A DNA stretch of 42,488 nucleotides, from positions 1-42,488 of the IMG/VR virus record IMGVR_UViG_3300006802_000183. The stretch is one strand, 5' to 3'. The notes under the pieces were generated by a model. It did not search any database. It was not told the origin of the DNA and saw only the letters and a list, made by a program, of their open reading frames with translations. The stretch comes from a virus. Position numbers and translations under genes: made by a program. Positions 1 to 42,404 of the stretch are shown piece after piece. The stretch's first letter is position 1; the number at the start of each line of letters is the position of its first letter.

Positions 1-927
1 AGTTACAGAAGGAGTCGGAGTTACTGAACTTGTCGGAGTATTACTTGGCGTCGGAGTAACAGTACTTGTTGGAGTATTACTTGGAGTATTACTTGGTGTT
101 GCAGTTACAGAAGGAGTTGGAGTAACAGAACTTGTTGGAGTATTACTTGGTGTAGCCGTTACTGATGGAGTCGGAGTAACCGAACTTGTTGGTGTGTTAC
201 TTGGAGTTGCCGTTACTGACGGAGTCGGAGTTACTGAACTTGTTGGTGTGTTGCTTGGAGTACTTGTAACCGTTGGTGTTACAGTACTTGTCGGAGTATT
301 AGTTGGAGTGTTACTTGGTGTTGGTGTTGGTGAAGCACCTGGAGTTAATGAAGGAGTCGGTGTTACACTACTTGTTGGTGTATTACTTGGAGTTGCGGTA
401 ACTGACGGAGTCGGAGTAACTGAACTTGTCGGAGTATTACTTGGAGTTGCAGTAACTGATGGTGTCGGTGTTACACTACTTGTTGGTGTATTACTTGGAG
501 TTGCGGTAACTGACGGAGTTGGTGTAACAGAACTTGTCGGAGTATTACTTGGTGTACTTGTCGGAGTCGGAGTAACAGAACTTGTTGGTGTATTACTTGG
601 AGTACTTGTAACAGTTGGTGTTACAGTACTTGTAGGTGTTGGAGTAGTACCAGGACTCAATGATGGAGTCGGAGTAACAGAACTTGTTGGCGTGTTACTT
701 GGAGTACTTGTAACCGTTGGTGTTACAGTACTTGTAGGTGTACTCGTTGGAGTATTTGTTGGTGTACTCGTTGGTGTGCTCGATGGAGTGTTATTTGGTG
801 TTTGAGTAGGAGTATTACTTGGTGTCGCGGTTGGCGTTGCGGTAATTGTTGGTGTAACACTAATCGTTGGGGTAATACTCGGAGTCGGAGTATTTGTTGG
901 TGTGTTAGTAGGTGTTGGTGTTGGAGT
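1..927 (-). repeat. 54-nt tandem coding repeat (Thr/Pro stalk)
   Basis: This stretch encodes residues 187 onward of the partial gene. The clearest period is 54 nt (18 residues, TPSNTPTSSVTPTPSVTA). Six units are identical at protein level, in two blocks of three, separated by a variant block marked by PGASP; another variant block carries PGTTP. The units differ from one another mostly at third codon positions (Pro as CCA, CCG or CCT; Thr as ACT, ACA, ACG or ACC). There is no spacer/repeat alternation as in CRISPR. Confidence 0.9.
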
Positions 928-1485
928 AACATCAACAAAATTACATATATAAATGTGTGGTGGTGTTGTAATAACACCAGTGTTACCACTAATATAAAAA
1001 TCAGTATTTGTACATGTTTCATTTAATAAATTATAATCGGTAGATGCTGTTAAAACTAAACTACCAGTTGTAGAGCCACTTGCTATTGGAATTGCTGGAT
1101 AAAATACTACAGGACTACCTGAAGTAACACCTAAAGTATTTTTAAAATTAACGGTAATATTTTCAGTGGCAGCCTCACTAGAAACAACACTATATGTTGA
1201 TTTAACACTACCAGGTGTTGTGGTGATTGTTATAACATATGAACTATATGCAATAACTTTATGACTAACCAATAAGTCATTACAACCATCTTGAGTATTT
1301 ACAACATTTAATGTATATTCTGTTCCAAAAGTAGACCCAGGTACTGTTATAACAACACCAGCAATCATTTGGTCTCTTGTTTGATTCGTCTTTATTGGAC
1401 TAGTTGTCGAAGTTGAACCTGTATATATATCAAACGGACCTATTGCATTAGAATCTAATGTAAGCCTTACTATAAATTGCGCCAT
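1..1485 (-). CDS. Thr/Pro-repeat tail-fibre-like protein, C-terminus beyond window
   Basis: An open frame starts at the ATG at 1485 and has no stop before the window edge, so only the first 495 residues are visible. Residues 1-186 form a beta-rich, Cys-poor head that starts MAQFIVRLTLDS; its first ~75 residues resemble the neighbouring 76-residue protein (an S-x-PY/PF-x-LY/IY motif and a late D-x-C). From residue 187 the chain is almost only Thr, Pro, Ser, Asn and Val, in imperfect 18-residue units of the type SNTPTSSVTPTPSVTATP. Such a chain is expected to be an extended, rigid stalk. Its position at the end of a baseplate/fibre cluster, behind a SprB-like fibre gene, suggests a tail fibre or virion-surface appendage. 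The ATG follows a TATTTAT box by 15 nt. Function beyond 'stalked surface protein' is inference; the receptor-binding end, if there is one, lies outside the window. Confidence 0.8.
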   Translation of the reverse strand, partial: MAQFIVRLTLDSNAIGPFDIYTGSTSTTSPIKTNQTRDQMIAGVVITVPGSTFGTEYTLNVVNTQDGCNDLLVSHKVIAYSSYVITITTTPGSVKSTYSVVSSEAATENITVNFKNTLGVTSGSPVVFYPAIPIASGSTTGSLVLTASTDYNLLNETCTNTDFYISGNTGVITTPPHIYICNFVDVTPTPTPTNTPTNTPTPSITPTISVTPTITATPTATPSNTPTQTPNNTPSSTPTSTPTNTPTSTPTSTVTPTVTSTPSNTPTSSVTPTPSLSPGTTPTPTSTVTPTVTSTPSNTPTSSVTPTPTSTPSNTPTSSVTPTPSVTATPSNTPTSSVTPTPSVTATPSNTPTSSVTPTPSVTATPSNTPTSSVTPTPSLTPGASPTPTPSNTPTNTPTSTVTPTVTSTPSNTPTSSVTPTPSVTATPSNTPTSSVTPTPSVTATPSNTPTSSVTPTPSVTATPSNTPSNTPTSTVTPTPSNTPTSSVTPTPSVT

Positions 1486-1554: not shown

Positions 1555-1785
1555 TTAGGCAGACTGACAAGGAAGGATTTCAAAATATTCGCAATTGTTA
1601 CTATCAATAATCTTTAACATGACTGATGGTGCTCCATCAAAAAAACTAGATAAACTATAATCTTGAGGTAATAATAATGGACTTGTCGCCATAACAGAAC
1701 AATTATTTCCGTTTGCATCACAAACATATAAAGTATATGGTGATGTAGCACCACTTACCGAACTTAATGTAATTTTAGAAGCCAT
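1555..1785 (-). CDS. Small beta-domain protein, fibre-associated (76 aa)
   Basis: The ATG at 1785 overlaps the stop of the upstream fibre gene in a TAATG junction, so translation is probably coupled. The protein has four cysteines (in the segments YVCDANGNNC, NNCEYF and LPCQSA), no signal peptide and no membrane segment. The pattern S-PY-LY-C...LP...L-K-I-D-x-x-x-C resembles the first ~75 residues of the next gene and, more loosely, one SprB-like module of the preceding fibre. It may be a free-standing single fibre module, a fibre tip or a chaperone. I do not recognise a named family; the role rests on context only. Confidence 0.7.
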   Translation of the reverse strand: MASKITLSSVSGATSPYTLYVCDANGNNCSVMATSPLLLPQDYSLSSFFDGAPSVMLKIIDSNNCEYFEILPCQSA

Positions 1786-4094
1786 TAACTAACACAATTT
1801 GCATCATAATTTATTTGTAATTCAATTTTAATGACCGCACCTTTTAATGGGTCATTATTACCACTACAATCTGAGTTTATAATAATCTGATTATTTAATA
1901 AATCTATAGTAACACTACCAACTTCAGGAATTGTATTTAATATTCCCTCTACTGTAGATATCCATTCACTATCAGTTGGAACAGAATTCAATGTTGTTGC
2001 AGTATAAAATGGAACTGTTGCTCCACTTACCCAACCTGTTGAACCTGTAATTGATACCACCGCATTAAATACAGCTTCATTTAAAACGCAATTTGTATTT
2101 CCTGATGTAACATCTAAAAATCCTTCATTTAACATTTTTCTCATACTTCTTTTTGTATTTGTTGTGGTTGTAAACAATTGTTCACAAACACCAACAACAC
2201 TATAAGCAGTCACTGTAGCTGAATTACATATTATGGTGATATACTTAGTCTTTTCACAGCCATCACTATCCGTTACTGTTACACTATAAGTATCTCCTGA
2301 TAAATTTGAAATTGTGGAATTTGTATTACCGTTACTCCATAAATAAGTAAAAGGTGGGTTACCATTAGTTACCACAACTTCGGCTGAACCGTCATTTCCA
2401 TAAACACAATTGGTTCCAAAAAGTGAAAAATCAATTAAACCTCCACCTGTAATATTAAATGTTTTAGTAACACTACAATTATCATTGTCTGTTACTGTAA
2501 CTGTGTAAATACCTGAACTTAAATTTTCAAATGTATATGCACTAAATGGTAAATCTAAATATTGTTGTCCATCACTTAAAACATAATCCAATGGTGATGC
2601 GTATCCTGAACCTACCTCAACTAAAACTGCTCCATTATTATTACCACAAGTAGAACCAGTAAGTGTTGTTGAAACATTAAATTTATTTTGAGAAGTAATA
2701 GTTTTAGTTGTTGTATAAAGACAATTTGAGCCTGTTCCTGAAATAGATATCAAATATGTATCATTTGATAAATTTATAAATGAGGCAGATTGAGATGTTG
2801 TAACTTGGGTTTGTTGAAAACCTGTTGTTGTACCAGTTATTGAATAAATATAATTGTTTGATAATGTACCTGCTATAATAATATTAATCTCACCGTTTGT
2901 ATTACTACAATTTGAATTAACTACAGATAAACTAACAACATCAAAACCTCCTGGTGCTGTTAAAGTACCTATAAATGTTGCCTTACACAAATCATTATCC
3001 GTAACACTTAAACTATATGCACCACTACTTAAATTTGTCAACGTAAATGTTCTAGAATTACTAAATTCTTGTTGACCAGTACTACCTGAATAATAGAATG
3101 GAAGAGTTCCACCCGTTATTGTGAAAGTTAATGAACCATTAGATGTAAAACAATCTGGAGTTACAGCAGTTAATGAACCAAGACCCAACGCATCTGTTAA
3201 AGATATTGTTTGGGATTTTGTTCGTACACATCCTAATGAATCTGTAACAGTAACTGTATATGTTCCAACAGTTAAACCTGTTATTGTATTTCCTGTTTCA
3301 CCATTATTCCACAAATAAGTATACGGTCCTTGTCCTGTTAATCCCGTTACAGATAGTTTACCTTGATTTTGAACACAGTTGGATGCGTTAACAACCCAAA
3401 AACCATAATCTAATTGTGTTGATGCTGAAATTAAAAATGTTTCAGTTTGAGCTGTTGCACCACCTGAATCTGTAATATACGCATGATACAATCCACTTGG
3501 GAAATTTGTAAATTGCCAAGGGAAAAAGTTTGCACTAGCACCCTGATAAAAAGTATTTCCACTATAAATTTTAATATCATATGGTGCTGTTGTTGAACTT
3601 CCACTTATAAAAAATTCTCCATTATCCTCTCCACATGTTGTACCCACAATTCCTAAAGCTTCAGCACAAAAACAATCACTTACAGTAATATTAACATATA
3701 GTTCTTGGTTATTTGGTGATGTAGAGTCTGATAGTAACCATGTATAGTTTCCACCACTCATTGAAGTAAATTCAAATGGTCCATTGCTTGACGCACCATT
3801 CAATGAGCTATTACCTGGAACAACATTCAATAAAGAATAAGGTGCAACCCCACCTGATGGTTGTATACTTACGGCACCATTACCAATATTCTCACAAACA
3901 CCTGTTATTGAAAAAGTGGCATCCAATGGAGCACAATCAGGAACACAAGATGATGAAGTAACATCAATACCCGAATAATAATAACTTGTATCAAGACAAA
4001 TACTAAAGCCAGCATTATACCCTGACTGTAATACTCCACAACAATCAGTGTAAGTCCAAGTAGTTCCGGTGGTTATTGCTGAAAAACAAGCCAT
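1785..4094 (-). CDS. SprB-repeat tail fibre / adhesin-like protein (769 aa)
   Basis: The protein consists of about seven beta modules of 70-80 residues (roughly residues 60-640), then a distinct C-terminal domain of about 115 residues. Two modules carry the full SprB-repeat signature: TYLWNNGETGNTITGL then GTYTVTVTDSLGC, and TYLWSNGNTNSTISNL then TYSVTVTDSDGC. The others keep the Cys...NG...PY/PF...L-S-x-G-x-Y...V-T-D core. SprB is the mobile cell-surface adhesin of gliding Bacteroidota. In a phage baseplate operon the likely role is a fibre that binds the host surface. The start is placed at ATG 4094, giving MACFSAITTG; a TTG three codons upstream is possible but the ATG forms the TAATG junction used by its neighbours. 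The C-terminal domain is shared with the upstream 987-residue protein, suggesting a common docking or trimerisation module. About one module in three has lost the WxxG element. Confidence 0.85.
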   Translation of the reverse strand: MACFSAITTGTTWTYTDCCGVLQSGYNAGFSICLDTSYYYSGIDVTSSSCVPDCAPLDATFSITGVCENIGNGAVSIQPSGGVAPYSLLNVVPGNSSLNGASSNGPFEFTSMSGGNYTWLLSDSTSPNNQELYVNITVSDCFCAEALGIVGTTCGEDNGEFFISGSSTTAPYDIKIYSGNTFYQGASANFFPWQFTNFPSGLYHAYITDSGGATAQTETFLISASTQLDYGFWVVNASNCVQNQGKLSVTGLTGQGPYTYLWNNGETGNTITGLTVGTYTVTVTDSLGCVRTKSQTISLTDALGLGSLTAVTPDCFTSNGSLTFTITGGTLPFYYSGSTGQQEFSNSRTFTLTNLSSGAYSLSVTDNDLCKATFIGTLTAPGGFDVVSLSVVNSNCSNTNGEINIIIAGTLSNNYIYSITGTTTGFQQTQVTTSQSASFINLSNDTYLISISGTGSNCLYTTTKTITSQNKFNVSTTLTGSTCGNNNGAVLVEVGSGYASPLDYVLSDGQQYLDLPFSAYTFENLSSGIYTVTVTDNDNCSVTKTFNITGGGLIDFSLFGTNCVYGNDGSAEVVVTNGNPPFTYLWSNGNTNSTISNLSGDTYSVTVTDSDGCEKTKYITIICNSATVTAYSVVGVCEQLFTTTTNTKRSMRKMLNEGFLDVTSGNTNCVLNEAVFNAVVSITGSTGWVSGATVPFYTATTLNSVPTDSEWISTVEGILNTIPEVGSVTIDLLNNQIIINSDCSGNNDPLKGAVIKIELQINYDANCVS

Positions 4095-7057
4095 TATTGA
4101 CAATTAATTGTTATATTAATACCCGTATTTAAGTATAGTGTTTTATTTGTAAAGTCATCATAACATGATGAGTTTGCCACAGTAATAGTATTACCATTTA
4201 TAAAATAAGTAAGTCCATACTGATATAAGTACTGAAGTTTATTATTTAAGGCTATTATCCAATCTGAATTTGTAGGTACGTCATTACCTCCATAACCCGT
4301 ATAAAATTTTTGTTGAACAAGTATTGTATTATCTAATCTTAAATCAACATACCATTCACTAACTATTGAATTAGTATCACAAACACTATATGAAGATGTT
4401 ACTTGTGAAACTGTATCTGACAACATCTGTTGAAAACTACTTGCCGTTGATGTTGATGACGATTCAATCCAGGGGTATATACCACATTGAATTGTTTGGT
4501 CTATACAATCATATCCCATTATCTGTCCTTCAAATGTACATGGAACACAAGGAATCGGTACAATCTCACAACCCCTCTGTCTTCTCCATACCACCTTCTG
4601 TCTATGGAAAACAGAGTTTTCCATTTTTTGTCCACCCATCCAAATTGTTGATGCCGGTAACAGTTGTTGGACCATTCTAATCCAATAATCACCCATACCC
4701 AAAGTGTAATCAATCATTTTTTGATATGTGTATTGATTAGATGGGACATTAATTGCTTGTTCTGAATTTAAATAATCCCAATAAATTTTTTGTAGTGTTG
4801 GGTATCCTCCTCCTTTACCATCGTCAATTGTTTGACGATTTCTAACATTAATCATGTTATTATAGAATGTTTGAGCAAATTCAAAAAATGTCTTTTGTTT
4901 TGGTTTGGGGTCAATGACCGTCCAATCAATGCCACCTGGTGAAGGATATGGTGAAGTTAAGCCTGAGTTTGGTATTGGATAGTTGTATTTTACAGACATA
5001 TTCCATACATCATATTCAAGTCCTTGACCCATATTCATATACAGGTCAATATTTTTGGCGTTCAATACTAATTTTTCATTTGAAACTCTATAGTATGCAT
5101 TAAAACCGTCCGAACTATTCCTTAATCCTAAATTTGTATTAGACCAAGATTTTTTATTATCATATTCTCTTGTTAATCCAAACCCTAAATTCAAATAAGG
5201 AAGATTTCTAAACCTATCAAAATATTGTTGTCCGTAGGTAAATGGTTCTAATATTGTTTGTGAATCTGGATTTGTTCCAGTATATTTTGTAGCATTTACT
5301 TTATTTATTGCCGGTGACCTATGTTCCGGTGTTGATGTATACCAACCCGCACCTTTTTCAAAAAAGAATGTAGAGTTGTTTGTTGGTGCCACAGGATATC
5401 CTTCATTGTCAACCGGAAAATCTTGTCTTCTTAATCCTGTATTAATTACTACAGAATCAGTGGTAAACCCTGTATATACTACACCTTTTATTTTAAATGT
5501 ATTATTACTATCAAATGTTGGTGTTTCGTCATTGTATGTACCACCAGATATTTGACTATATTTTTGATTAAATTGGTCCATGTTAATTGGACCGTCAGCT
5601 AAATAAATAATTTCATTAAAATCTATCAAAGCTTCGGGTGCACCAACTGACCTTAATACCCATTCAATAGCTTCTCTTTTACCCTTACTTTTAAAAAGAT
5701 ATGCTGAATTTAAAATTAAGTTTCTATAAAATTGATAGTTAAGTTCATTTGGTGTTTTATCTCTTGTTTGACCAGGATAAATAGATTGATTTTTTGTACC
5801 AAAAACAGATTGTAAAAAGTCATCATTTGTAACAGGTGATATATTAGTCTGCCACCCTAATGTTAATGCTAGATTATATAACAATTGTGAGGGTATATCA
5901 TTTTGTGGAACATAATGTACTGAAGTAATATAAGCTAATGCATCGATGAACTTTTTTGTTTCATCAAAACTTCTACCATATATCTGTAATACTTTTTCAA
6001 CCTTATGGTCCTCAGTATCAAATTCATGAAATGATGCTGTAGTTAAAAATCTACTAATAAGATTTGTTTTAAACCCATCTAAATCTTCCGCAATTAAATT
6101 AAGATTATTTAAATACGTTTCAAATTTATTTGTTCTAATATCTATATTCCATAAACCATCTAAATTCCATGTAACACTTTTATTTAATATTTGATACCTA
6201 CCATTATCATCCGCCACAGGAACTTGGAATATTGCCGTAAATTTTGGTTTAACTAATCTATTCAATAAGAAATCTTCAACCTCATCAAATGGGTCTTGAA
6301 AAGATTTTTCAGTTTCAAATCCATTAGGTTTAATAACAATACTTTCTAAACTTGTTGATTGTCCCGAAAATGGATTACCAATTACAACAAATGTAACAGT
6401 ACCAGCTGATAATTTAACAGATGGTGTAAAATCATAAACAAGATATTCTGTTTCTAAATTACTAACATAGATTGAATACTTACCATAATTTAAAGTTAAA
6501 TTTCTTAATGGACTTACTTCAAAAGGTCTTACCGATATATTTCTTGTTGCGTTTTGAGAATAGTCAATATCAAATGGATTTTTGAATCGAGTTACGTCAA
6601 TAGTTAGTGTTGTTAAATTTTCTTGTGAATCATAGGAAATATTATATGCAGTATTTCCTGTTGTATAATCATAATATGTTTTATCAATCTGAATCGCTGC
6701 AGGAAAATAATTAATTATTTTTGTAACTGAAGCACTAAATCTTTTTTGTAATGAACCGTATAATGTAAAATTAGTGACTTGACTTATATCATAATTTGGA
6801 TAAACTCTATAATTTTTTGCAATTATTGTTTTAGACTCTAATAAGTTACTAATTTGTAAATCTTCTAAACTGATTGGGTCTGAAAAAACACCAGTACTAA
6901 ATGTCCTATTAACTTTTTGAACAACTGAAGTACTAAATTCAAAGTTGCCTTGAGTCAATCCCCCTCCATCAACAATTTGTAATCCTACAATGTTGTCAGA
7001 AAAGGTTCCACTACCATTACCTGGTGCGGGAGGATATCTGTACTTATTACTTGCCAT
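4094..7057 (-). CDS. Baseplate wedge protein, gp7/gpI-like (987 aa)
   Basis: This is a large baseplate protein, of a size like T4 gp7 (about 1030 aa). The middle (about residues 330-480) has the pattern of P2 gpI-type tail protein I: an L-x-x-L-A-x-x-L-G-W segment followed by RNLILNSAYLFKSKGKREA and then VLRSVG, matching the conserved 'rR.li..a..l...KG...ai...l...G' block. The C-terminal part has a Cys-rich stretch (CEIVPIPCVPC and later CIDQTIQC) and then a final domain of about 115 residues that is also found at the C-terminus of the next gene product (V-P-T-N/D-S-D/E-W-I signature). It starts at ATG 7057 in a TAATG overlap. Likely role: wedge component joining the gp6 ring to peripheral fibres. 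The gp7/gpI assignment is by motif and order, not by full alignment. Confidence 0.7.
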   Translation of the reverse strand: MASNKYRYPPAPGNGSGTFSDNIVGLQIVDGGGLTQGNFEFSTSVVQKVNRTFSTGVFSDPISLEDLQISNLLESKTIIAKNYRVYPNYDISQVTNFTLYGSLQKRFSASVTKIINYFPAAIQIDKTYYDYTTGNTAYNISYDSQENLTTLTIDVTRFKNPFDIDYSQNATRNISVRPFEVSPLRNLTLNYGKYSIYVSNLETEYLVYDFTPSVKLSAGTVTFVVIGNPFSGQSTSLESIVIKPNGFETEKSFQDPFDEVEDFLLNRLVKPKFTAIFQVPVADDNGRYQILNKSVTWNLDGLWNIDIRTNKFETYLNNLNLIAEDLDGFKTNLISRFLTTASFHEFDTEDHKVEKVLQIYGRSFDETKKFIDALAYITSVHYVPQNDIPSQLLYNLALTLGWQTNISPVTNDDFLQSVFGTKNQSIYPGQTRDKTPNELNYQFYRNLILNSAYLFKSKGKREAIEWVLRSVGAPEALIDFNEIIYLADGPINMDQFNQKYSQISGGTYNDETPTFDSNNTFKIKGVVYTGFTTDSVVINTGLRRQDFPVDNEGYPVAPTNNSTFFFEKGAGWYTSTPEHRSPAINKVNATKYTGTNPDSQTILEPFTYGQQYFDRFRNLPYLNLGFGLTREYDNKKSWSNTNLGLRNSSDGFNAYYRVSNEKLVLNAKNIDLYMNMGQGLEYDVWNMSVKYNYPIPNSGLTSPYPSPGGIDWTVIDPKPKQKTFFEFAQTFYNNMINVRNRQTIDDGKGGGYPTLQKIYWDYLNSEQAINVPSNQYTYQKMIDYTLGMGDYWIRMVQQLLPASTIWMGGQKMENSVFHRQKVVWRRQRGCEIVPIPCVPCTFEGQIMGYDCIDQTIQCGIYPWIESSSTSTASSFQQMLSDTVSQVTSSYSVCDTNSIVSEWYVDLRLDNTILVQQKFYTGYGGNDVPTNSDWIIALNNKLQYLYQYGLTYFINGNTITVANSSCYDDFTNKTLYLNTGINITINCQ

Positions 7058-16332: not shown

Positions 16333-18171
16333 TTAAGAGAATGATATATTCTTAAGGTCTTTAACTCTAACTTTAATATTCTTATTTGGGAATCTAATTT
16401 GATAAATTTGATTTGGTTCCGCAAATATTGTATCATCAATCAATTCAATTTGTTTTGTGGCCTCGTTTGAATATTTTTGTGATGTTTGAGATGACGAATA
16501 TTCTCCACCTGTTTTATTAAAAATAGCAATATCTGATAAAGAAATAACACCTGAAATATTTTGAATAATTCTTCTAACTTCAGATACATTTAAGTTTTGT
16601 CCTAGCTCTCGGTTAAATGAACTCATATATTGAGTTAATTGATTTATTATTTCAGTAATTACTTGTCCCTGATTTTGTACTGAATCAAATACAACCGATA
16701 AATCAAACTCTAAATCAATTACTTGCGCACTTCCTATTTCTACATAGTCATTAATCATTCTATAGTTAGATAAATAAGTTGCTACATTATTTTTTAATGT
16801 GTTAGAAAGAACTTCAGTTAATTGTCCATTAGAATCATAAGATAACATTTGAACAATAATTTTATTATTATTTTCTGTAATACTTACTTTAGCGGGTGCA
16901 CCGAATTTACCAGGCATCAAACTAATTAATGACTGATAGTCGTTAATAGTTACCGCTCTGTTTTGTGCTGAAAAGTTAAAACCAACCATATTTCTAACTT
17001 CTTCTGTTGTTGGTTGATTTGCCCCACCAACAGCCGCTGTGACATTATTAACTGTAAGTGAGTTTATGACAATTTGATTAATGTTATTGGATGGTCCATT
17101 TACAGAAAAATTAACACTACCTAATTGTGTTATACTATTTACACCAATATTGGATGCGGTTCCACCACCAATTCTATATTGTATAAATAAAGTTGTATTG
17201 GCCTTAACTGTTAATCCCAATCCAATATTATTTTGATAATCTTGAATTCTTAAAGGAACTCCTGTTCTTGCAAATTGAGCTAATTGTTCATCCGGTGTTG
17301 TTGTACCCCCACCAAAAGTTAATTTTATAAATCCTTCAGGTGTGTATTCAGTAATAAATCTATTTTCTGTTTGTAACCATCTACCAACTTTAACTCCTGT
17401 TGAATCCGCAGGTTTTGTTGGGTCTTCAATGAACACTTTATTTTGTGCCAAAGCACTAACTTCATACCATTTATTAGGAGAACTAATAAACTCATTGTAC
17501 GTAGGTGTGGCTTGATAATTTGTTCCGTCTTTTTGTATAACTGCAGTTACTCCCAATACATTTCTTTCAGGAAGAAAAATTTCATAAAATGGTATAACAT
17601 CATTTGGATTTATAATTTGTTTAAAGACTTTAGTTATACCGTTAACTACTGTTTCTCTTTTAGTTATTGTATAATTAATTAATCGGTTATTTGAATCAAA
17701 ATTTGGAATTTTTATTCTATTGGGAAATCCTGCGTTGTTATATGGTGATGCAAAATCTATATCATATACATTTTCAAATGTTTGTCCCGCTCCTACAACT
17801 TGAGAACCCGCTCTCAAAATACCCAAATATCTAGCGTCTTCTTTATCTCCATAAGCCGGAACAGTAATTGAAAAATCAACCATTGAAACTGATGGCCTGT
17901 ATCCCGGAATTTTTAAACCATATGTTCTTGCTATATTATAGACTGAAGAACGTTGTTGTGCATATTGTAATACAGTTTCTTGAATACTTCTATCTATATG
18001 ATAATGTAAATTATCCCCAATCGCAGCATTTAAATCCATAAAAACGGAAAACACCGAGGCATCATTAAAGTTGTCAATAAGTTCAGGGTAATATTGACGA
18101 GTATAATTAACGAGGTCTTGTCTTAATCCTTCAAAATCTCTTTCTGTATAGGATATTTTCTTATTTGCCAT
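16333..18171 (-). CDS. 6: Baseplate wedge protein gp6-like (baseplate J family)
   Basis: At 612 residues this is close to T4 gp6 (about 660). The N-terminus, with YTERDFEGLRQDLVNYTRQY then DNFNDASVFSVFMDLNAAIG and a DNLHYHIDR motif, is the typical start of gp6/baseplate-J proteins. The middle holds the beta domain with Gly-rich turns (KLTFGGGTTTPDE), and the C-terminal half the conserved AVTINDYQSLI and PGKFGAPAKV region found in gp6 and P2 gpJ. gp6 forms the inner wedge ring that encircles the hub and changes shape when the tail contracts. It lies directly downstream of gp25 (6 nt gap), as expected for the gp25-gp6 core bundle of contractile systems. The ATG at 18171 is preceded by A/T-rich sequence without a Shine-Dalgarno. 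Confidence 0.92.
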   Translation of the reverse strand: MANKKISYTERDFEGLRQDLVNYTRQYYPELIDNFNDASVFSVFMDLNAAIGDNLHYHIDRSIQETVLQYAQQRSSVYNIARTYGLKIPGYRPSVSMVDFSITVPAYGDKEDARYLGILRAGSQVVGAGQTFENVYDIDFASPYNNAGFPNRIKIPNFDSNNRLINYTITKRETVVNGITKVFKQIINPNDVIPFYEIFLPERNVLGVTAVIQKDGTNYQATPTYNEFISSPNKWYEVSALAQNKVFIEDPTKPADSTGVKVGRWLQTENRFITEYTPEGFIKLTFGGGTTTPDEQLAQFARTGVPLRIQDYQNNIGLGLTVKANTTLFIQYRIGGGTASNIGVNSITQLGSVNFSVNGPSNNINQIVINSLTVNNVTAAVGGANQPTTEEVRNMVGFNFSAQNRAVTINDYQSLISLMPGKFGAPAKVSITENNNKIIVQMLSYDSNGQLTEVLSNTLKNNVATYLSNYRMINDYVEIGSAQVIDLEFDLSVVFDSVQNQGQVITEIINQLTQYMSSFNRELGQNLNVSEVRRIIQNISGVISLSDIAIFNKTGGEYSSSQTSQKYSNEATKQIELIDDTIFAEPNQIYQIRFPNKNIKVRVKDLKNISFS

Positions 18172-18177
18172 ATACTA

Positions 18178-18639
18178 TTAAATATTGATTATTATGAAAT
18201 CTTTAGTTTCAAATGCTTTATTATCCGCACTATAGTCTATTCTTAATTTTGCTGTATACTCTTCTGTTCCTTTTCCTGGTATTCTGTAAACTAAACCACC
18301 TAATTTTTCATAATTTAATTCTCCTTGAGCTTCTAAATCGTCCAAATATGGTGTTAAGGTAATATCTTTAATAGTAAGATTTGGAATGTATTTATCTACC
18401 GCTTCTCTGATATCTGATTTTATAGCCTCAAATGTTGGTCCATCCATAGGTTCAAATATGAACTCATAGATTCTTGTTCCAAAATCAGGTAAAAAATACC
18501 TACTACCTTTTCTTGTTAATATTAAATGTAAAAGGTCAGTCCTTATCTCCTCTATACTACTTTGTGAGAGGGATAAGTATTTTCCTTGTAAACTATCTCT
18601 AAAAGGAAAATTAACACCATATGTAAAACCATCAGCCAT
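18178..18639 (-). CDS. 25: Baseplate wedge protein gp25 (GPW/gp25 family)
   Basis: The 153-residue protein has the gp25 signature: an N-terminal FPFRD, a helix ending in IRTDLLHLILTRKGSRYF, then LPDFGTRIYEFIFEP and a region ending in DKYIPNLTIKDI. T4 gp25 is 132 residues. gp25 is a small wedge protein that nucleates sheath assembly at the baseplate and packs with gp6 and gp7. Databases often call this family 'lysozyme-like', but no muramidase catalytic site is visible. It is the first gene after the nrdA terminator and precedes gp6 by 6 nt. An ATATATTTATGAATA sequence abuts the ATG at 18639. Confidence 0.95.
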   Translation of the reverse strand: MADGFTYGVNFPFRDSLQGKYLSLSQSSIEEIRTDLLHLILTRKGSRYFLPDFGTRIYEFIFEPMDGPTFEAIKSDIREAVDKYIPNLTIKDITLTPYLDDLEAQGELNYEKLGGLVYRIPGKGTEEYTAKLRIDYSADNKAFETKDFIIINI

Positions 18640-18725: not shown

Positions 18726-20432
18726 TTATCCCTCACAAGAAGTACAAACTAAATCATTAAGATTAAGTTTTTTTCTTGCAAATGCTTGTGCCGAATTCAT
18801 TGAGTGTTGATAATACAATGTCTTTACTCCCATTTTCCACGCATCTATCAATAGTTTATTAACATCTTTAGTTGGCATATCTGGTGATACCATTAAGTTT
18901 AAAGATTGAGCTTGGTCAATATAATCTTGTCTAACCGCCGCCATATTAATAATTGATGATTGGTTAATTTCTGCAAATGTCCTAAAAACTTCTTTCTGTT
19001 CATTTGTAAGAAACTCTAAGTGTTGAACTGAACCATCGTGTTTTTTAATACTATCCCATGTAGTTTTAGTATCTTTTTTAATTTCAGATAATAAATTTTT
19101 TAACACAGGATTTTTAATTGTAACTTTTAATTTAGCAACGTCTTTAACATAACAGTTTGACCAAATTGGTTCAATAGATTGTGATACTTGACCTAAAATA
19201 AATGCTGATGATGTCGTTGGTGCTATGGCATTAAGAGTAACATTTCTACGTCCATAACCAACCAAAGTTTCAGGTTCACCAAACATATCAGCCAAATTTG
19301 CAGAGGCTTGATATGATTTATCTTTAATTAATTTAAACACCTCAACATTTAATCTTGCAGATTCTCTACTATCAAAAGGAAGATTCTTTGATTGTAACAA
19401 TGAATGCCATCCTAAAACACCGAGTCCTAATGCTCGTTGACGTTTAGCGAAGTTATAAGCTTTTTCTAAATAGAAAAAAGCCCTTTTACCTTCAATTGTT
19501 CCGTTGTCTCTAATATTTTCAATTTTTGTAATAAATTCAGAAACTACCGCATCTAAGAAATAAACCATAATTTCAACAGCATCGGTATCTTTCCATTCAT
19601 CATAATGCAATAAATTCATAGATGAAAGAACACAAACAAATGATTCTTCTTCAGAATTATGAAGAGCAATTTCAGAACAAAGATTTGAGTTGTAAATTTT
19701 CATACCCTTATCACGATAAACTTCGGGTGCTTTATTGTTCATTGTATCGGTAAACATGATATATGGATAACCTATTTCACCTCTTCTTTGAATAACTTTA
19801 GCCCAAACTGCTCTTTTCTTTTTATCACCATCAATCATTTCGTTCATAAATTCATCGGTAACCGTTACCGCATGTGTTAAATCTTGAATTGGTGCACCTT
19901 CAGTACCAATTTCCAAAAACTCCATAATGTCTGGATGCTCTACAGGAAGATACGGTGAAAATCTACCTCTACGTGTTGAACCTTGCGATATATTATCCAC
20001 AACACTTTGGAATAAATTCATAAAGTGTACTGAACCAGGTGCGTGTCCGTTATCTGTAATTTCAGCACCTCTACCTCTAATATTACCAAAGTAACCTGAT
20101 GTTCCTCCACCCATCTTACTCATTTCACCGACTTCGGCTTGAGTATATAAGATTGATTCAATATTGTCACCAATATTTGAACCAAAACAACTAACAGGTA
20201 ATCCTCTTTTTTTACCAAAGTTTGCCCACACTGGAGATGATAATGAATACCATCCACGACCCATGTAGTCATAAAATTTATTCGCAAATCCTTCAATACC
20301 TAAAAGTTTTTCTGCGTGTTCTGCAACAGTTCTAATTCTTTCTAATGGTTCTTCCCCTTCGCTCAAATATCCTCTACGAAGGAATGTGATGGATTCATCA
20401 TTAATCCAATCAAATGCTTCTCTATTATTCAT
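18726..20432 (-). CDS. nrdA: Ribonucleotide reductase class I, large subunit (no ATP-cone)
   Basis: This is the catalytic subunit that reduces ribonucleotides to deoxyribonucleotides. Visible residues: C82 (LPVSCFGS) and C267 (FVCVLSSMNL) as the redox pair, N250-L-C252-x-E254 (NLCSEIAL) with the thiyl-radical Cys, Y540-Y541 (TLYYQHS) for radical transfer, and a C-terminal C563-x2-C566 (VCTSCEG) for re-reduction by thioredoxin/glutaredoxin. At 568 residues it is about 190 shorter than E. coli NrdA (761): the N-terminal ATP-cone is missing and the chain begins directly with the catalytic domain. The cone is on NrdB instead. It follows nrdB by 15 nt and ends the operon before a strong terminator. 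Intact, no intein or intron. Confidence 0.97.
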   Translation of the reverse strand: MNNREAFDWINDESITFLRRGYLSEGEEPLERIRTVAEHAEKLLGIEGFANKFYDYMGRGWYSLSSPVWANFGKKRGLPVSCFGSNIGDNIESILYTQAEVGEMSKMGGGTSGYFGNIRGRGAEITDNGHAPGSVHFMNLFQSVVDNISQGSTRRGRFSPYLPVEHPDIMEFLEIGTEGAPIQDLTHAVTVTDEFMNEMIDGDKKKRAVWAKVIQRRGEIGYPYIMFTDTMNNKAPEVYRDKGMKIYNSNLCSEIALHNSEEESFVCVLSSMNLLHYDEWKDTDAVEIMVYFLDAVVSEFITKIENIRDNGTIEGKRAFFYLEKAYNFAKRQRALGLGVLGWHSLLQSKNLPFDSRESARLNVEVFKLIKDKSYQASANLADMFGEPETLVGYGRRNVTLNAIAPTTSSAFILGQVSQSIEPIWSNCYVKDVAKLKVTIKNPVLKNLLSEIKKDTKTTWDSIKKHDGSVQHLEFLTNEQKEVFRTFAEINQSSIINMAAVRQDYIDQAQSLNLMVSPDMPTKDVNKLLIDAWKMGVKTLYYQHSMNSAQAFARKKLNLNDLVCTSCEG

Positions 20433-20447
20433 ATTTTAATCTTATAT

Positions 20448-21734
20448 TTAGAATAAATCATTTAATGTTATTGATTTACTTTTTTTACTGTAATTGATGC
20501 TTCTCTTATTGAAAAAGTCAGTATGTTTTGTTGTTAAGATTTCATCATCAAACCACTCTGTTGTTTCCAATAATTTTTGGTCAACATGGAAAATACTATC
20601 AATGCCAATAGAATTTAAAGATACATTAAAACGGTGTTTAATAAACTCTAAAGTTTGAGATTTAGTTAAGAAATCTAAATCACCTTCTTCAAAAATCCAA
20701 TCAACAATGTCGGACTCTGCACTGAATGCTTCCATAGTCGCATCAATCAAGTCTTCGATTAATTCAGGTGTCCACCAAGATGGATTTTCCTTCTTAATCA
20801 AATTAACTAAATCAAATCCAAACTCTGCGTGAATATTCTCCTCTTTAGATGTTGCCTCAACCGCATTACTCATACCTTTTAACATGTTTTTGTGTTTGTT
20901 AAATGACATAATAACCAAGAATTGTGAAAACAATGAAACGTTTTCCACAAACATTGAGAACAATACTATTGATTCGAAATAATCTTTGTTTTCTACAGAT
21001 TTTGAACTAAAAATTGATTTTTCCAAATACTTGATTCTTCTTCTGATTGCAGGAACTTGAAGTAGACTTTCAAATTCACTGTTCAATCCAAGAACCTGAA
21101 TAAGGTTTGAATACGCGTCTGCGTGTCTGACCTCTGATTCTGCAAATGTTGCTCCAACATTTCCAATTTCAGGTTTTGGCATTCTCTTGTAGATGTCCCC
21201 CCAAAATGTTTTTACTGCAATTTCAATTTGTGAAATTGCCAACATTGCCCTTTGAACAGCCGTTCTTTCAGGACCTGTTAAGTGTACTTTAAAATCTTGA
21301 ATATCTGATGTAAAATTAAACTCAGTGTGTACCCAATATGAATGTCTAATTGCATCCACATATTCCACTAACTCAGGATATTCATAAGGTTTTAAATTTA
21401 CTCTTTTGGTAAAAATATTTGGTTGGTGTGTTGAACGGTAAATAATATATTCTCTTGCAACATCATTGAGTCCATTGTCCATTAATTTATTTTCTACTGT
21501 CTCATGGATTTCATCAACGTGTGGAACTCTGTCTTTGTCATCTCTGAAAAGACTTTTCCTTGTTAATCTTGCAATTTTTTCAGCCATTTCTACATCAACA
21601 ACATTGATGCTTTCCATAGCTTTAATTACCGCATTTTTTATTTTGTCTTCTTGAAATAAAACTTTTTCTCCCTTTCTTTTTATTACAAAGCGAGCATCTC
21701 TATCTTCTATTGTTATATCACTATTCATTTCCAT
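20448..21734 (-). CDS. nrdB: Ribonucleotide reductase class I, small subunit with N-terminal ATP-cone
   Basis: This is the radical-generating subunit. Numbering from ATG 21734 (428 aa), residues ~14-104 form an ATP-cone: FVIKRKGEKVLFQEDKIKNA ... VPHVDEIHETVENKL ... AREYIIYR. The ferritin-like domain follows with metal ligands E171, E201, H204 (SEVRH), E264 (FVENV), E299 and H302 (EENIH), and the radical tyrosine Y208 (HADAY, H+4), so it is Tyr-radical type. The C-terminus ends in LNDLF, the likely NrdA-docking tail. A TTG at 21770 would add 12 residues inside the helicase gene; the ATG at 21734, just 4 nt past the helicase stop, is preferred (a second ATG is at 21728). Family knowledge: ATP-cones on NrdB, as in Leeuwenhoekiella, control oligomerisation of the NrdB subunit by ATP/dATP. 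Confidence 0.96.
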   Translation of the reverse strand: MEMNSDITIEDRDARFVIKRKGEKVLFQEDKIKNAVIKAMESINVVDVEMAEKIARLTRKSLFRDDKDRVPHVDEIHETVENKLMDNGLNDVAREYIIYRSTHQPNIFTKRVNLKPYEYPELVEYVDAIRHSYWVHTEFNFTSDIQDFKVHLTGPERTAVQRAMLAISQIEIAVKTFWGDIYKRMPKPEIGNVGATFAESEVRHADAYSNLIQVLGLNSEFESLLQVPAIRRRIKYLEKSIFSSKSVENKDYFESIVLFSMFVENVSLFSQFLVIMSFNKHKNMLKGMSNAVEATSKEENIHAEFGFDLVNLIKKENPSWWTPELIEDLIDATMEAFSAESDIVDWIFEEGDLDFLTKSQTLEFIKHRFNVSLNSIGIDSIFHVDQKLLETTEWFDDEILTTKHTDFFNKRSINYSKKSKSITLNDLF

Positions 21735-21738
21735 ATTT

Positions 21739-23115
21739 TTATAATTGATTTTCTTTTTTACGTTTATCAAGCAATTCCTTGATTCTAAGTTTATTTCTTT
21801 CTTCTTTTTGTTCTTCTAATCCTAAGAACGTAACACTTTGTTCAGTGTCTATTTGAAGTAATTCATTATCAAATTTACAATTTTCAAATACAATTCCGTC
21901 TTTACCAATACGAGATTTTGTAATTGCAATTGTCGCCAGGTTCATTTCTTTTTGTTGTAAAGATTTTGCAACAGTTATAATAACGTGACCAACTTGTGCT
22001 TTTTTAATTGAACCACCCATTTGGTCTGTTGTAACAACGTCTGAAGATATTGAAGAACGGTTACCTTGTGTTGCGGTCCAACCAGCCAAATCAAGTTCAT
22101 GACACATAGCCTCAAAAGACCTCATTACAGAACCTTCACTCTTCCATTCATCACCCAAGTTTTTATCAGGCATAATACAATCAATATAATCTAAAACAAC
22201 CATATCAATTTTATTACCCTCAGCAACCATTTTACGAATTTGATTTTTAACTTGATTCATAGTTAAAGTGTCGGAAGGTAATTTTTTCAATGTTAACTTA
22301 TTTGGTGTATTATCTTGAATAGACTTAACTTTATCCATAACCTCGTCTTTATGTAAAGACAGGTTGTCAGGTGCAATACCTGTCCAAAGTGTAAAGTGTT
22401 TTCTTTGAATAATCTTAGGATTATCCTCAAAAAATATCTGAAGTACATTATATCCAAGATTAAATCCATGATTGGCAATCTTTGTTAAAACGGTTGTTTT
22501 ACCCACACCTGTTGGTGCCAATATAACACCAATCTCACCCTTAGCCAATCCACCTTTTAAACAGTTATCAATACCAGGAATTCCAATGGGTATTGGGTGT
22601 CTAAAATCATCCTGTAATACTTGGTCCAAATTTGAAAATACATCATCAATTCCTTGATTTAATTCTCCCACTTGTAAAGCTTCTCTAACCATTTCTTCAA
22701 GTTTGTCATAACTCTCAAAATCACCTTTATCAATGATTTTTTGAGCCTTACCCATAACCTTCTGTAATTCTTGTTGTTTACAGAACTTTAATGACTTTTC
22801 TTGTACAAACTGATGACCCTGAAAAGGAGCCTCTTTTACCTGTGACACCATGTCCAGAACCATTTTCTGAGCCATAGGTGATGAAATTTCACTCTTGGTT
22901 AATTGTTCTAACGTATCAAATGTAGGTGCATGTTCATACTTAACATAATACTCCTTAATCATTTGCATAATCAAACGAAAATATTGATTGTCAAAGTATT
23001 TCGGGTCCAAGACATCTACAATGGAATTTGCAAATTCTTTATATAAAATAATATTGTTTAATAATTGTATTTGAAATGTGTTTCCTAGATATCCAAAATT
23101 CTTTTCGTCTGACAT
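21739..23115 (-). CDS. 41: Replicative DNA helicase, DnaB/gp41 family
   Basis: The 458-residue protein has an N-terminal helical domain (residues ~1-150) and a RecA-like motor: Walker A APTGVGKTT (200-208), a glutamate in IFFEDNP (~230), Walker B MVVLDYID (305-312), a Q in TATQGNR (~350) and a basic element TKSRIGKDG (arginine finger region, ~399-407). Size and layout fit T4 gp41 (475 aa), the hexameric 5'-3' fork helicase. It lies downstream of uvsX and the nuclease, and immediately upstream of nrdB, so fork progression and dNTP supply are co-expressed. No primase gene is in this window. A CATATTTATTAAAA sequence lies about 32 nt upstream of the ATG. Confidence 0.93.
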   Translation of the reverse strand: MSDEKNFGYLGNTFQIQLLNNIILYKEFANSIVDVLDPKYFDNQYFRLIMQMIKEYYVKYEHAPTFDTLEQLTKSEISSPMAQKMVLDMVSQVKEAPFQGHQFVQEKSLKFCKQQELQKVMGKAQKIIDKGDFESYDKLEEMVREALQVGELNQGIDDVFSNLDQVLQDDFRHPIPIGIPGIDNCLKGGLAKGEIGVILAPTGVGKTTVLTKIANHGFNLGYNVLQIFFEDNPKIIQRKHFTLWTGIAPDNLSLHKDEVMDKVKSIQDNTPNKLTLKKLPSDTLTMNQVKNQIRKMVAEGNKIDMVVLDYIDCIMPDKNLGDEWKSEGSVMRSFEAMCHELDLAGWTATQGNRSSISSDVVTTDQMGGSIKKAQVGHVIITVAKSLQQKEMNLATIAITKSRIGKDGIVFENCKFDNELLQIDTEQSVTFLGLEEQKEERNKLRIKELLDKRKKENQL

Positions 23116-41478: not shown

Positions 41479-41689
41479 ATTGTTTATTTTTTTGTTTTTC
41501 AATCATTTCATTTTTCTTATCAAATTCTTCAACTAGTTTACTTATAAAATATTTTCGTTCAAAAACAGGCATAATTAGAATATCCGAATAAGAAAAATTC
41601 GCATGTCTACATAAATAATAAATTTCGTTTAATTGATTTTTTTTATAATCAGAAGAAAGGTCGAAAAAACTCTGCCCCGAAAGTGACAT
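41477..41689 (-). CDS. Small tail-assembly protein (70 aa), overlaps gp26-like gene
   Basis: ATG 41689 is chosen over a TTG two codons upstream. The gene overlaps the end of the preceding hub gene by 41 nt in another frame. The protein carries CRHANFSYSDILIMPVFERK then YFISKL and a Lys/Glu-rich tail (EEFDKKNEMIEKQKNKQ); the 'YSD-x-x-x-MP-x-x-E-R-x-x-F' pattern is familiar from small genes next to tape-measure genes of T4-like phages and related tails. A tape-measure chaperone or hub-assembly role is likely from position; it is not proven by a catalytic or structural motif. Confidence 0.75.
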   Translation of the reverse strand: MSLSGQSFFDLSSDYKKNQLNEIYYLCRHANFSYSDILIMPVFERKYFISKLVEEFDKKNEMIEKQKNKQ

Positions 41690-42404
41690 TAACAAACACT
41701 TTTTCTCCTGACGGGGCTATAATTTCTCTTCTTAAATCAAGTTTTGGTTCAGCTAATCTAAGTTGTTGTCTGATATATTTTGAATCTGCAATTGGCATTT
41801 GACTGATAAACACAGAAATGTTTTGTTTATTATCATCACCATCTAAAGTTATAATTTGTTTTTCCAATCTTTTTGTAGCTATTGGTGCAACCATACCCTG
41901 AGGATATTGTGATACCAATTTGTCAATCTCTTCTTGTTCACCAATATTTAATAATCTACATTCGACCACTTTCCCTGATGTGGGTAAAGTTAATCCAATC
42001 AAACCTTTTTCATTTGTTTGTAATTCAGGCTCGATAAAATTAATTTCATCTAAACTTATAATAGTTTCAAAAGTTTTTTGTGTTATAGGGTCTGTTGTAA
42101 CAACTTTATAATCAGAACCAAAAGCTGTGTTTCTTAAGAACAACAATATGGCTTGAACATCACCGTCAATCAATTCATTGACATTAAAATTTGGTTCATA
42201 AATTTTTTGTTTTAACAATGTTTTAATTACCCCCTCTGATTGAACTATATTAGGTGACATTAAAATGTTCTCGTCATTAGCAGTTAAATAACCAACCTTA
42301 ATAGACGATTTTTTGTTTTTATAAAACTTTCCTTTAGAAGGTAATGAAACCACATCATGTGGTAAGTTCATATCCATTTGACCGTATTGTGCTGCTGTAT
42401 CCAT
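41649..42404 (-). CDS. Baseplate hub protein, T4 gp26/gp51 family
   Basis: The 251-residue protein shows the T4 baseplate family pattern: VVSLPSKGKFYKNKKSSIKV, then LTANDENILMSP, a helix VIKTLLKQKIYEPNFN, INELIDGDVQ-like ELIDGDVQAILLFLRNTAFG, and a C-terminal end FGAEFFRPFF. Members (T4 gp26, 208 aa; gp51, 249 aa) take part in assembling the central baseplate hub. It is the first gene in the window and is followed by the small overlapping gene and tape measure, the usual tail order. Its start, ATG 42404, lies just 11 nt beyond the U-tract of a hairpin, so its own promoter position is unclear. I cannot separate gp26 from gp51 by eye. Confidence 0.85.
   Translation of the reverse strand: MDTAAQYGQMDMNLPHDVVSLPSKGKFYKNKKSSIKVGYLTANDENILMSPNIVQSEGVIKTLLKQKIYEPNFNVNELIDGDVQAILLFLRNTAFGSDYKVVTTDPITQKTFETIISLDEINFIEPELQTNEKGLIGLTLPTSGKVVECRLLNIGEQEEIDKLVSQYPQGMVAPIATKRLEKQIITLDGDDNKQNISVFISQMPIADSKYIRQQLRLAEPKLDLRREIIAPSGEKVFVNVTFGAEFFRPFF

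Follow-up and report, generated by a model that had tools for sequence, protein, structure and literature searches.

The window, a virus record of 42,488 bases, encodes on its minus strand a putative SprB-array fibre protein of 769 amino acids (1785-4094; residue 1 at 4094, stop codon at 1785-1787). Its ATG start codon (4094) overlaps the stop codon of the preceding gene (4094-7057, minus strand), an arrangement common in phage operons. The preceding gene encodes a conserved protein of 987 amino acids, which we call a putative baseplate-to-fibre connector. On the other side of the array gene lies a minus-strand gene for a Thr/Pro-rich stalk protein (1-1485) that is cut by the contig end. The earlier note had placed the array in a baseplate operon, and this placement is borne out by genes for a gp6-like baseplate wedge protein (Baseplate_J; 16333-18171, minus strand; Pfam and PHROGs), a gp25-like baseplate wedge protein (18178-18639, minus strand; PHROGs) and a hub-like gene (41649-42404). 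Together with these genes, synteny across the related loci shows that the tail-operon position of the array gene is conserved, and it points to a baseplate-proximal position of the fibre. Genes for the large and small subunits of ribonucleotide reductase (18726-21770) adjoin the baseplate wedge genes.

Modules, caps and predicted fold

The repeats that the earlier note had recognized in the open reading frame at 1785-4094 were recovered in the profile search it had proposed: the Pfam profile PF13573 (SprB) matched the 769-aa protein in 5 stretches with 52.9 bits (E 2.9e-14; curated cut-off 28 bits). In a single-repeat search of the window with this profile, the repeat of module M7 (2322-2411) alone reached 37.2 bits and exceeded the cut-off; further single repeats were found at 3294-3380, 3072-3164 and 3834-3887, and 14 control genomes gave 0 matches in the same search. 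PHROGs assigned no family to the array protein. Structure prediction, which had likewise been suggested as a check, agreed with the earlier count of about seven modules. AlphaFold, based on the 8-sequence alignment A1, predicted seven beta-sandwich modules, preceded by a beta cap at the N-terminus and followed by an alpha/beta cap at the C-terminus (mean pLDDT 80). The pTM of this model is 0.30, which is normal for a flexible chain, and the relative positions of the modules carry no meaning.

On the minus strand, an N-terminal Cys-rich beta cap with a phage-only profile (residues 1-54, TYTDCCGV..., 3933-4094) is followed by the diverged, SprB-like module M1 (residues 55-144, 3663-3932), the diverged module M2 (residues 145-231, 3402-3662), which is the weakest on the SprB-type profile, module M3 with the canonical SprB motif PYTYLWNNG...GTYTVTVTDSLGC (residues 232-301, 3192-3401), the SprB-like module M4 (residues 302-383, 2946-3191), the diverged modules M5 (residues 384-471, 2682-2945) and M6 (residues 472-552, 2439-2681), and module M7 with the canonical motif PFTYLWSNG...TYSVTVTDSDGC and the best Pfam match (residues 553-624, 2223-2438). 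The earlier note had described the motif PYTYLW-NG...TYTVTVTDSxGC for the modules in general. This holds for M3 and M7, the only two in which the motif is clean, and not for M1, M2 and M4-M6, which are diverged and reach on average 14-37 bits compared with 92-93 bits for M3 and M7 on a profile that was itself built from M3 and M7.

The phage-only C-terminal alpha/beta cap (residues 625-769, 1788-2222, minus strand) has a paralogue in the upstream 987-aa protein, whose homologous C-terminal domain spans residues 859-986 (4100-4483, minus strand). The relationship was detected by phmmer (9e-6) and by hhalign (96.9%, E 1.7e-10, versus 0.2% for a control region), and the order of helices and strands is identical in the models of both domains. 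The 987-aa protein as a whole had no match in Pfam, PHROGs or PDB sequences and no significant fold match, and its model is poor (pLDDT 60). Because it has neither a recognizable family nor a good model, its baseplate role is assigned from position. A relationship to P2 gpI (Tail_P2_I), considered because of a helical stretch and the place before the fibre gene, was rejected, as these searches gave no match and the model is too poor.

Among solved structures, the best Foldseek matches for the array were fragments of GhpA (grappling hook protein A) from the Bacteroidota member Aureispira sp. CCB-QB, with E-values down to 6e-21 over 783 columns, followed by numerous eukaryotic tandem-Ig proteins. 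The predicted fold agrees with the earlier note in that the modules are Ig-like and closest to a Bacteroidota surface appendage. Over the entire array GhpA gives the best match among solved folds, but GhpA forms an appendage on the cell surface, is several thousand residues long and is 15-18% identical to the array. The PDB chain with the best sequence-profile match was RemZ from Flavobacterium johnsoniae (E 5e-4; profile positions 72-421 against chain positions 223-609), a type A substrate of the T9SS whose similarity to the array is weak. RemZ is a homologue of the gliding adhesin RemA, and only the C-terminal domain of RemZ is well resolved (PMC10994853). Weak sequence-profile matches were also obtained with Ig domains of T5-type decoration and neck-whisker proteins.

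Relatives in phages and cells

Viral loci were taken from two viral-contig scans, one with the 987-aa protein and one with alignment A1 as query (at least 463 relatives). Several loci represented one contig counted twice, and duplicates and incomplete copies were removed before cores were counted. Among the matches listed, 65 distinct viral cores including that of the window remained, each accompanied by the 987-aa protein; as the relatives were found with patterns from the core itself, this set is biased towards conserved copies. The records of several relatives are 210-300 kb long. In alignment A1, the cores are 38-73% identical to the window protein. The 65 distinct cores among the matches listed have seven modules of near-constant lengths and no hypervariable module; pairwise identity averages 39-56% for the individual modules and 57% for the 987-aa protein. 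In 28 diverse cores, the best match of 195 of the 196 modules was another phage's module of the same position, and not a module from a cell or from another position. The relative closeness of cellular modules and other-position phage modules was set aside because it is confounded by database size. Whole-core dN/dS ratios of close pairs were 0.04-0.2, with ratios at dS above about 1 excluded as near saturation. Positional orthology and these ratios argue for one old array whose order has been kept under purifying selection. Conservation of the block as a unit in so many distinct sequences, with dN/dS well below 1, places the array described in the earlier note beyond chance.

Among the matches listed, profile matches were obtained for the N cap in 75 viral loci, for the C cap in 95, a count that may take in the connector's own C-terminus, and for the connector in 99; in part of the loci L094-L107 the N cap has no detectable profile match. 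With the exception of L021, where one gene stands between the two, every array locus of the phage group has the 987-aa protein directly upstream of the array gene, at a distance of -12 to +79 bp. The core forms a separate gene in some of the phages and lies inside open reading frames of up to 2944 amino acids in others.

The best viral structure match was A0A6J5LD72 from an uncultured Caudovirales phage (BFVD/UniProt; 714 aa, E 1e-57, 32% identity over 726 columns), which means that the array family is already present in databases under the automatic name 'SprB repeat'. The protein is shorter than the window protein and, judging from its length, perhaps lacks the N cap; it probably belongs to the same phage family as the cores of L094-L103 (705-710 aa). 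No description of the array family was found in the open-access literature searched.

None of the cultured phages in the searched collection carries the array gene. The nearest cultured relative by RecA is the Flavobacterium phage vB_FspM_immuto (Immutovirus, 44%), and immuto phages are also among the best matches of the gp6-like protein (27%), next to an uncultured phage and a Microcystis phage. The SprB array was not found in immuto by tblastn, and the annotated tail fibre and spike genes of immuto encode different proteins. Given these cultured relatives and the relatives of the array, the sequences suggest that the host is probably a member of the Bacteroidota; a Bacteroidota promoter motif was not enriched in the window (3 occurrences versus 2.3 expected).

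A genome scan gave 79 cellular loci, all from Bacteroidota except one labelled Chlorobiota, which match mainly residues 40-640, corresponding to the array. The profiles of the N cap, the C cap and the connector matched 0 of these 79 loci. Of 59 cellular open reading frames with an intact C-terminus, nearly all end in a T9SS sorting domain (31 match type B and 26-29 type A). In the array protein, a T9SS sorting domain is absent from the C-terminus, the sole match being below threshold and located in M6 (residues 522-544); its start MACFSAITTGTTWTYTDCCG... shows no signal peptide on inspection, and MACFSAITTGTTWTYTDCCGV has, by the same judgement, neither a basic n-region nor a hydrophobic core. 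The phage form therefore retains the repeats but appears to lack the export system. Cellular PF13573 proteins are T9SS-exported and have arrays of variable length, whereas the window protein has exactly seven modules, phage caps and no export signal. The modules are members of a Bacteroidota adhesin-repeat family, and this SprB-repeat family is generic among T9SS-secreted proteins rather than specific to SprB. The earlier proposal of host-adhesin building blocks accordingly needs to be qualified: the nearest cellular relatives are indeed almost only Bacteroidota proteins, but the family is not that of SprB in particular and the array is old and fixed. A recent transfer from a host adhesin was rejected, since the best cellular segments are 26-36% identical to the window array compared with 38-73% among phages. 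Judged by its distribution, the array was likely derived from a Bacteroidota protein.

Probable role of the array in a phage fibre

We consider it likely that the array is the structural shaft of a baseplate-attached fibre in a T4-related phage and that specificity resides elsewhere. Both the positional orthology and the purifying selection argue for a structural segment of a fibre. Neighbouring fibre parts are joined to the array in some relatives: a stalk/tip domain is fused to it in L009/L092 and L089 and encoded by an adjoining gene in other relatives, and von Willebrand factor A (VWA) domains are fused to the array protein in L009, L011, L014, L083 and L089. The orthologue of the window stalk protein in L005 ends in the tip domain, which was identified with a profile iterated from three sequences. 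These fusions point to a single fibre made up of array, stalk and tip. We know of no virion proteomics or imaging for this phage group.

According to this proposal, the seven Ig-like SprB-family modules would form a beads-on-a-string shaft between the N cap and a C-terminal assembly domain that is common to the array protein and the preceding connector. A Bacteroidota adhesin-type repeat protein would have given rise to the array long ago; its export signals would then have disappeared, phage caps would have been added, and the array would have stayed a fixed seven-module unit. Host specificity would more likely be located in the variable Thr/Pro-rich stalk, the tip and the VWA-type parts, which are encoded downstream or fused.

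Less probable, but worth considering, is that the array itself is an adsorption device whose Ig/SprB modules bind host-surface or algal/mucus glycans in the manner of lectins and bring the phage near its host. The repeat family is that of Bacteroidota surface proteins, and VWA, which is fused to the array in some relatives, is a common adhesion fold. However, a hypervariable or shuffled region, as would mark a receptor-binding tip, was absent from the modules, which have near-constant lengths and positional orthologues; a Pfam search detected no carbohydrate-binding family in the array, and the variation between phages sits in the fused and neighbouring regions instead. The fixed architecture may be compatible with binding of a conserved ligand. 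Precedents in phages are the gut-phage Ig-like adhesins (PMC13370021) and the BACON tandem repeats, which occur on tail proteins of crAss-like phages (PMC6949934). The occurrence of tandem Ig-like repeats of Bacteroidota type on phage tail proteins is thus already known from BACON. Like the window array, BACON arrays are Bacteroidota-associated Ig-like tandem repeats in tail-associated phage proteins, but BACON is another domain family, and its lineages have duplicated or exchanged domains while the window array is fixed.

Readings that involve the motility or surface apparatus of the host appear very unlikely. In one, the fibre would act as the virus's equivalent of a surface appendage of Bacteroidota: its SprB/GhpA-type array would attach to adhesin filaments that belong to this repeat family and that the host exports by its T9SS, and the phage would dock on the gliding or grappling machinery, or travel with it, before injection; we give this little credence. 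Hardly more can be said for an array that mimics or binds a mobile gliding adhesin of the SprB/RemA type, with the phage riding on or attaching to the T9SS-driven adhesin track. Membership in the SprB family and RemZ as the best PDB sequence match agree with it, and the gliding machinery has been proposed as a phage receptor in Flavobacterium, according to PMC7345892, which cites Nelson 2008. The repeat family is, however, generic among T9SS substrates, no single host adhesin shows recent similarity to the array, and no feature of homotypic binding is evident. The suggestion in the earlier note that the array binds the polysaccharides or partners of the host adhesin, or SprB itself, therefore finds no support in an array with positional matches for nearly all modules, no hypervariable module and no secretion signal. 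It is also unlikely, in view of the viral context, that the array protein is a mobile cell-surface protein supporting gliding.

Generic Ig-like convergence, in which the SprB score would reflect common beta-sandwich motifs with no tie to Bacteroidota adhesins, is similarly improbable. The eukaryotic tandem-Ig proteins returned by Foldseek and the weak matches to T5-type decoration and neck-whisker Ig domains would fit it, but multi-module tblastn matches to Bacteroidota proteins reached E-values down to 3e-49, calculated relative to the candidate stretches only, and the Pfam score of M7 alone and the unmatched control genomes also speak against it. Least probable of all is a non-virion protein that is exported by the infected host as a phage-encoded surface or secreted protein, which would resemble the exported cellular relatives and a protein of the huge phage LR756502 with a signal-peptide-like N-terminus and CHU_C, but conflicts with the lack of both export signals in the window protein, with the locking of its gene to the baseplate operon and with the domain it has in common with the connector.

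If the array is the shaft of the fibre, it would be a common and recognizable fibre component of a large group of uncultured T4-related phages that has no isolate in the searched phage collection. An adhesin-repeat fold would have been taken over as fixed virion architecture, in parallel to the BACON arrays of crAss-like phages. Connector and array can serve as a marker for finding such phages, and a search for host-range determinants should turn to the variable stalk, tip and VWA parts that adjoin the array.

Stalks, tips and associated genes

Thr/Pro-rich, low-complexity stalk proteins with TPTPS-type repeats are encoded in the window (1-1485, minus strand) and at L005:12622-15024 and L021:18601-20784. 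Their N-terminal and tip domains are conserved and their length varies between phages. The fibre open reading frames of L009, L011 and L014 (2340-2944 aa) contain one to three VWA domains, some of them with a DxSxS motif. Downstream of the array, amid Thr/Pro-rich fibre genes, a gene for a GlcNAc-type glycosyltransferase of family PF11397 was found (L034:12904-14106, E 7e-68), and the motif is present in 39 viral loci among the matches listed. It is possible that this enzyme provides phage-encoded glycosylation of the stalk.

The 642-kb uncultured huge phage LR756502.1 carries a 1670-aa open reading frame (L025:7319-12331) with 13 SprB repeats (E 6e-95), a PKD domain and, as type IX secretion signal, CHU_C. 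It has a signal-peptide-like N-terminus and adjoins phage-type topoisomerase II genes. The idea that it is a phage-borne relative of the fibre was rejected, because it has the form of a host-type exported protein with CHU_C, without either cap and without the connector; it looks like a candidate for a phage-carried, T9SS-exported adhesin of host type in a possibly chimeric assembly.

The 270-kb relative G014 encodes a 1401-aa protein that consists largely of a GSSGTSGSSG repeat with non-repetitive ends (L026:755-4960). The same phage encodes a second SprB-bearing protein of 904 amino acids (L027:13799-16513), which has a segment starting with FVFYDGTSL in common with the giant fibre of L011.
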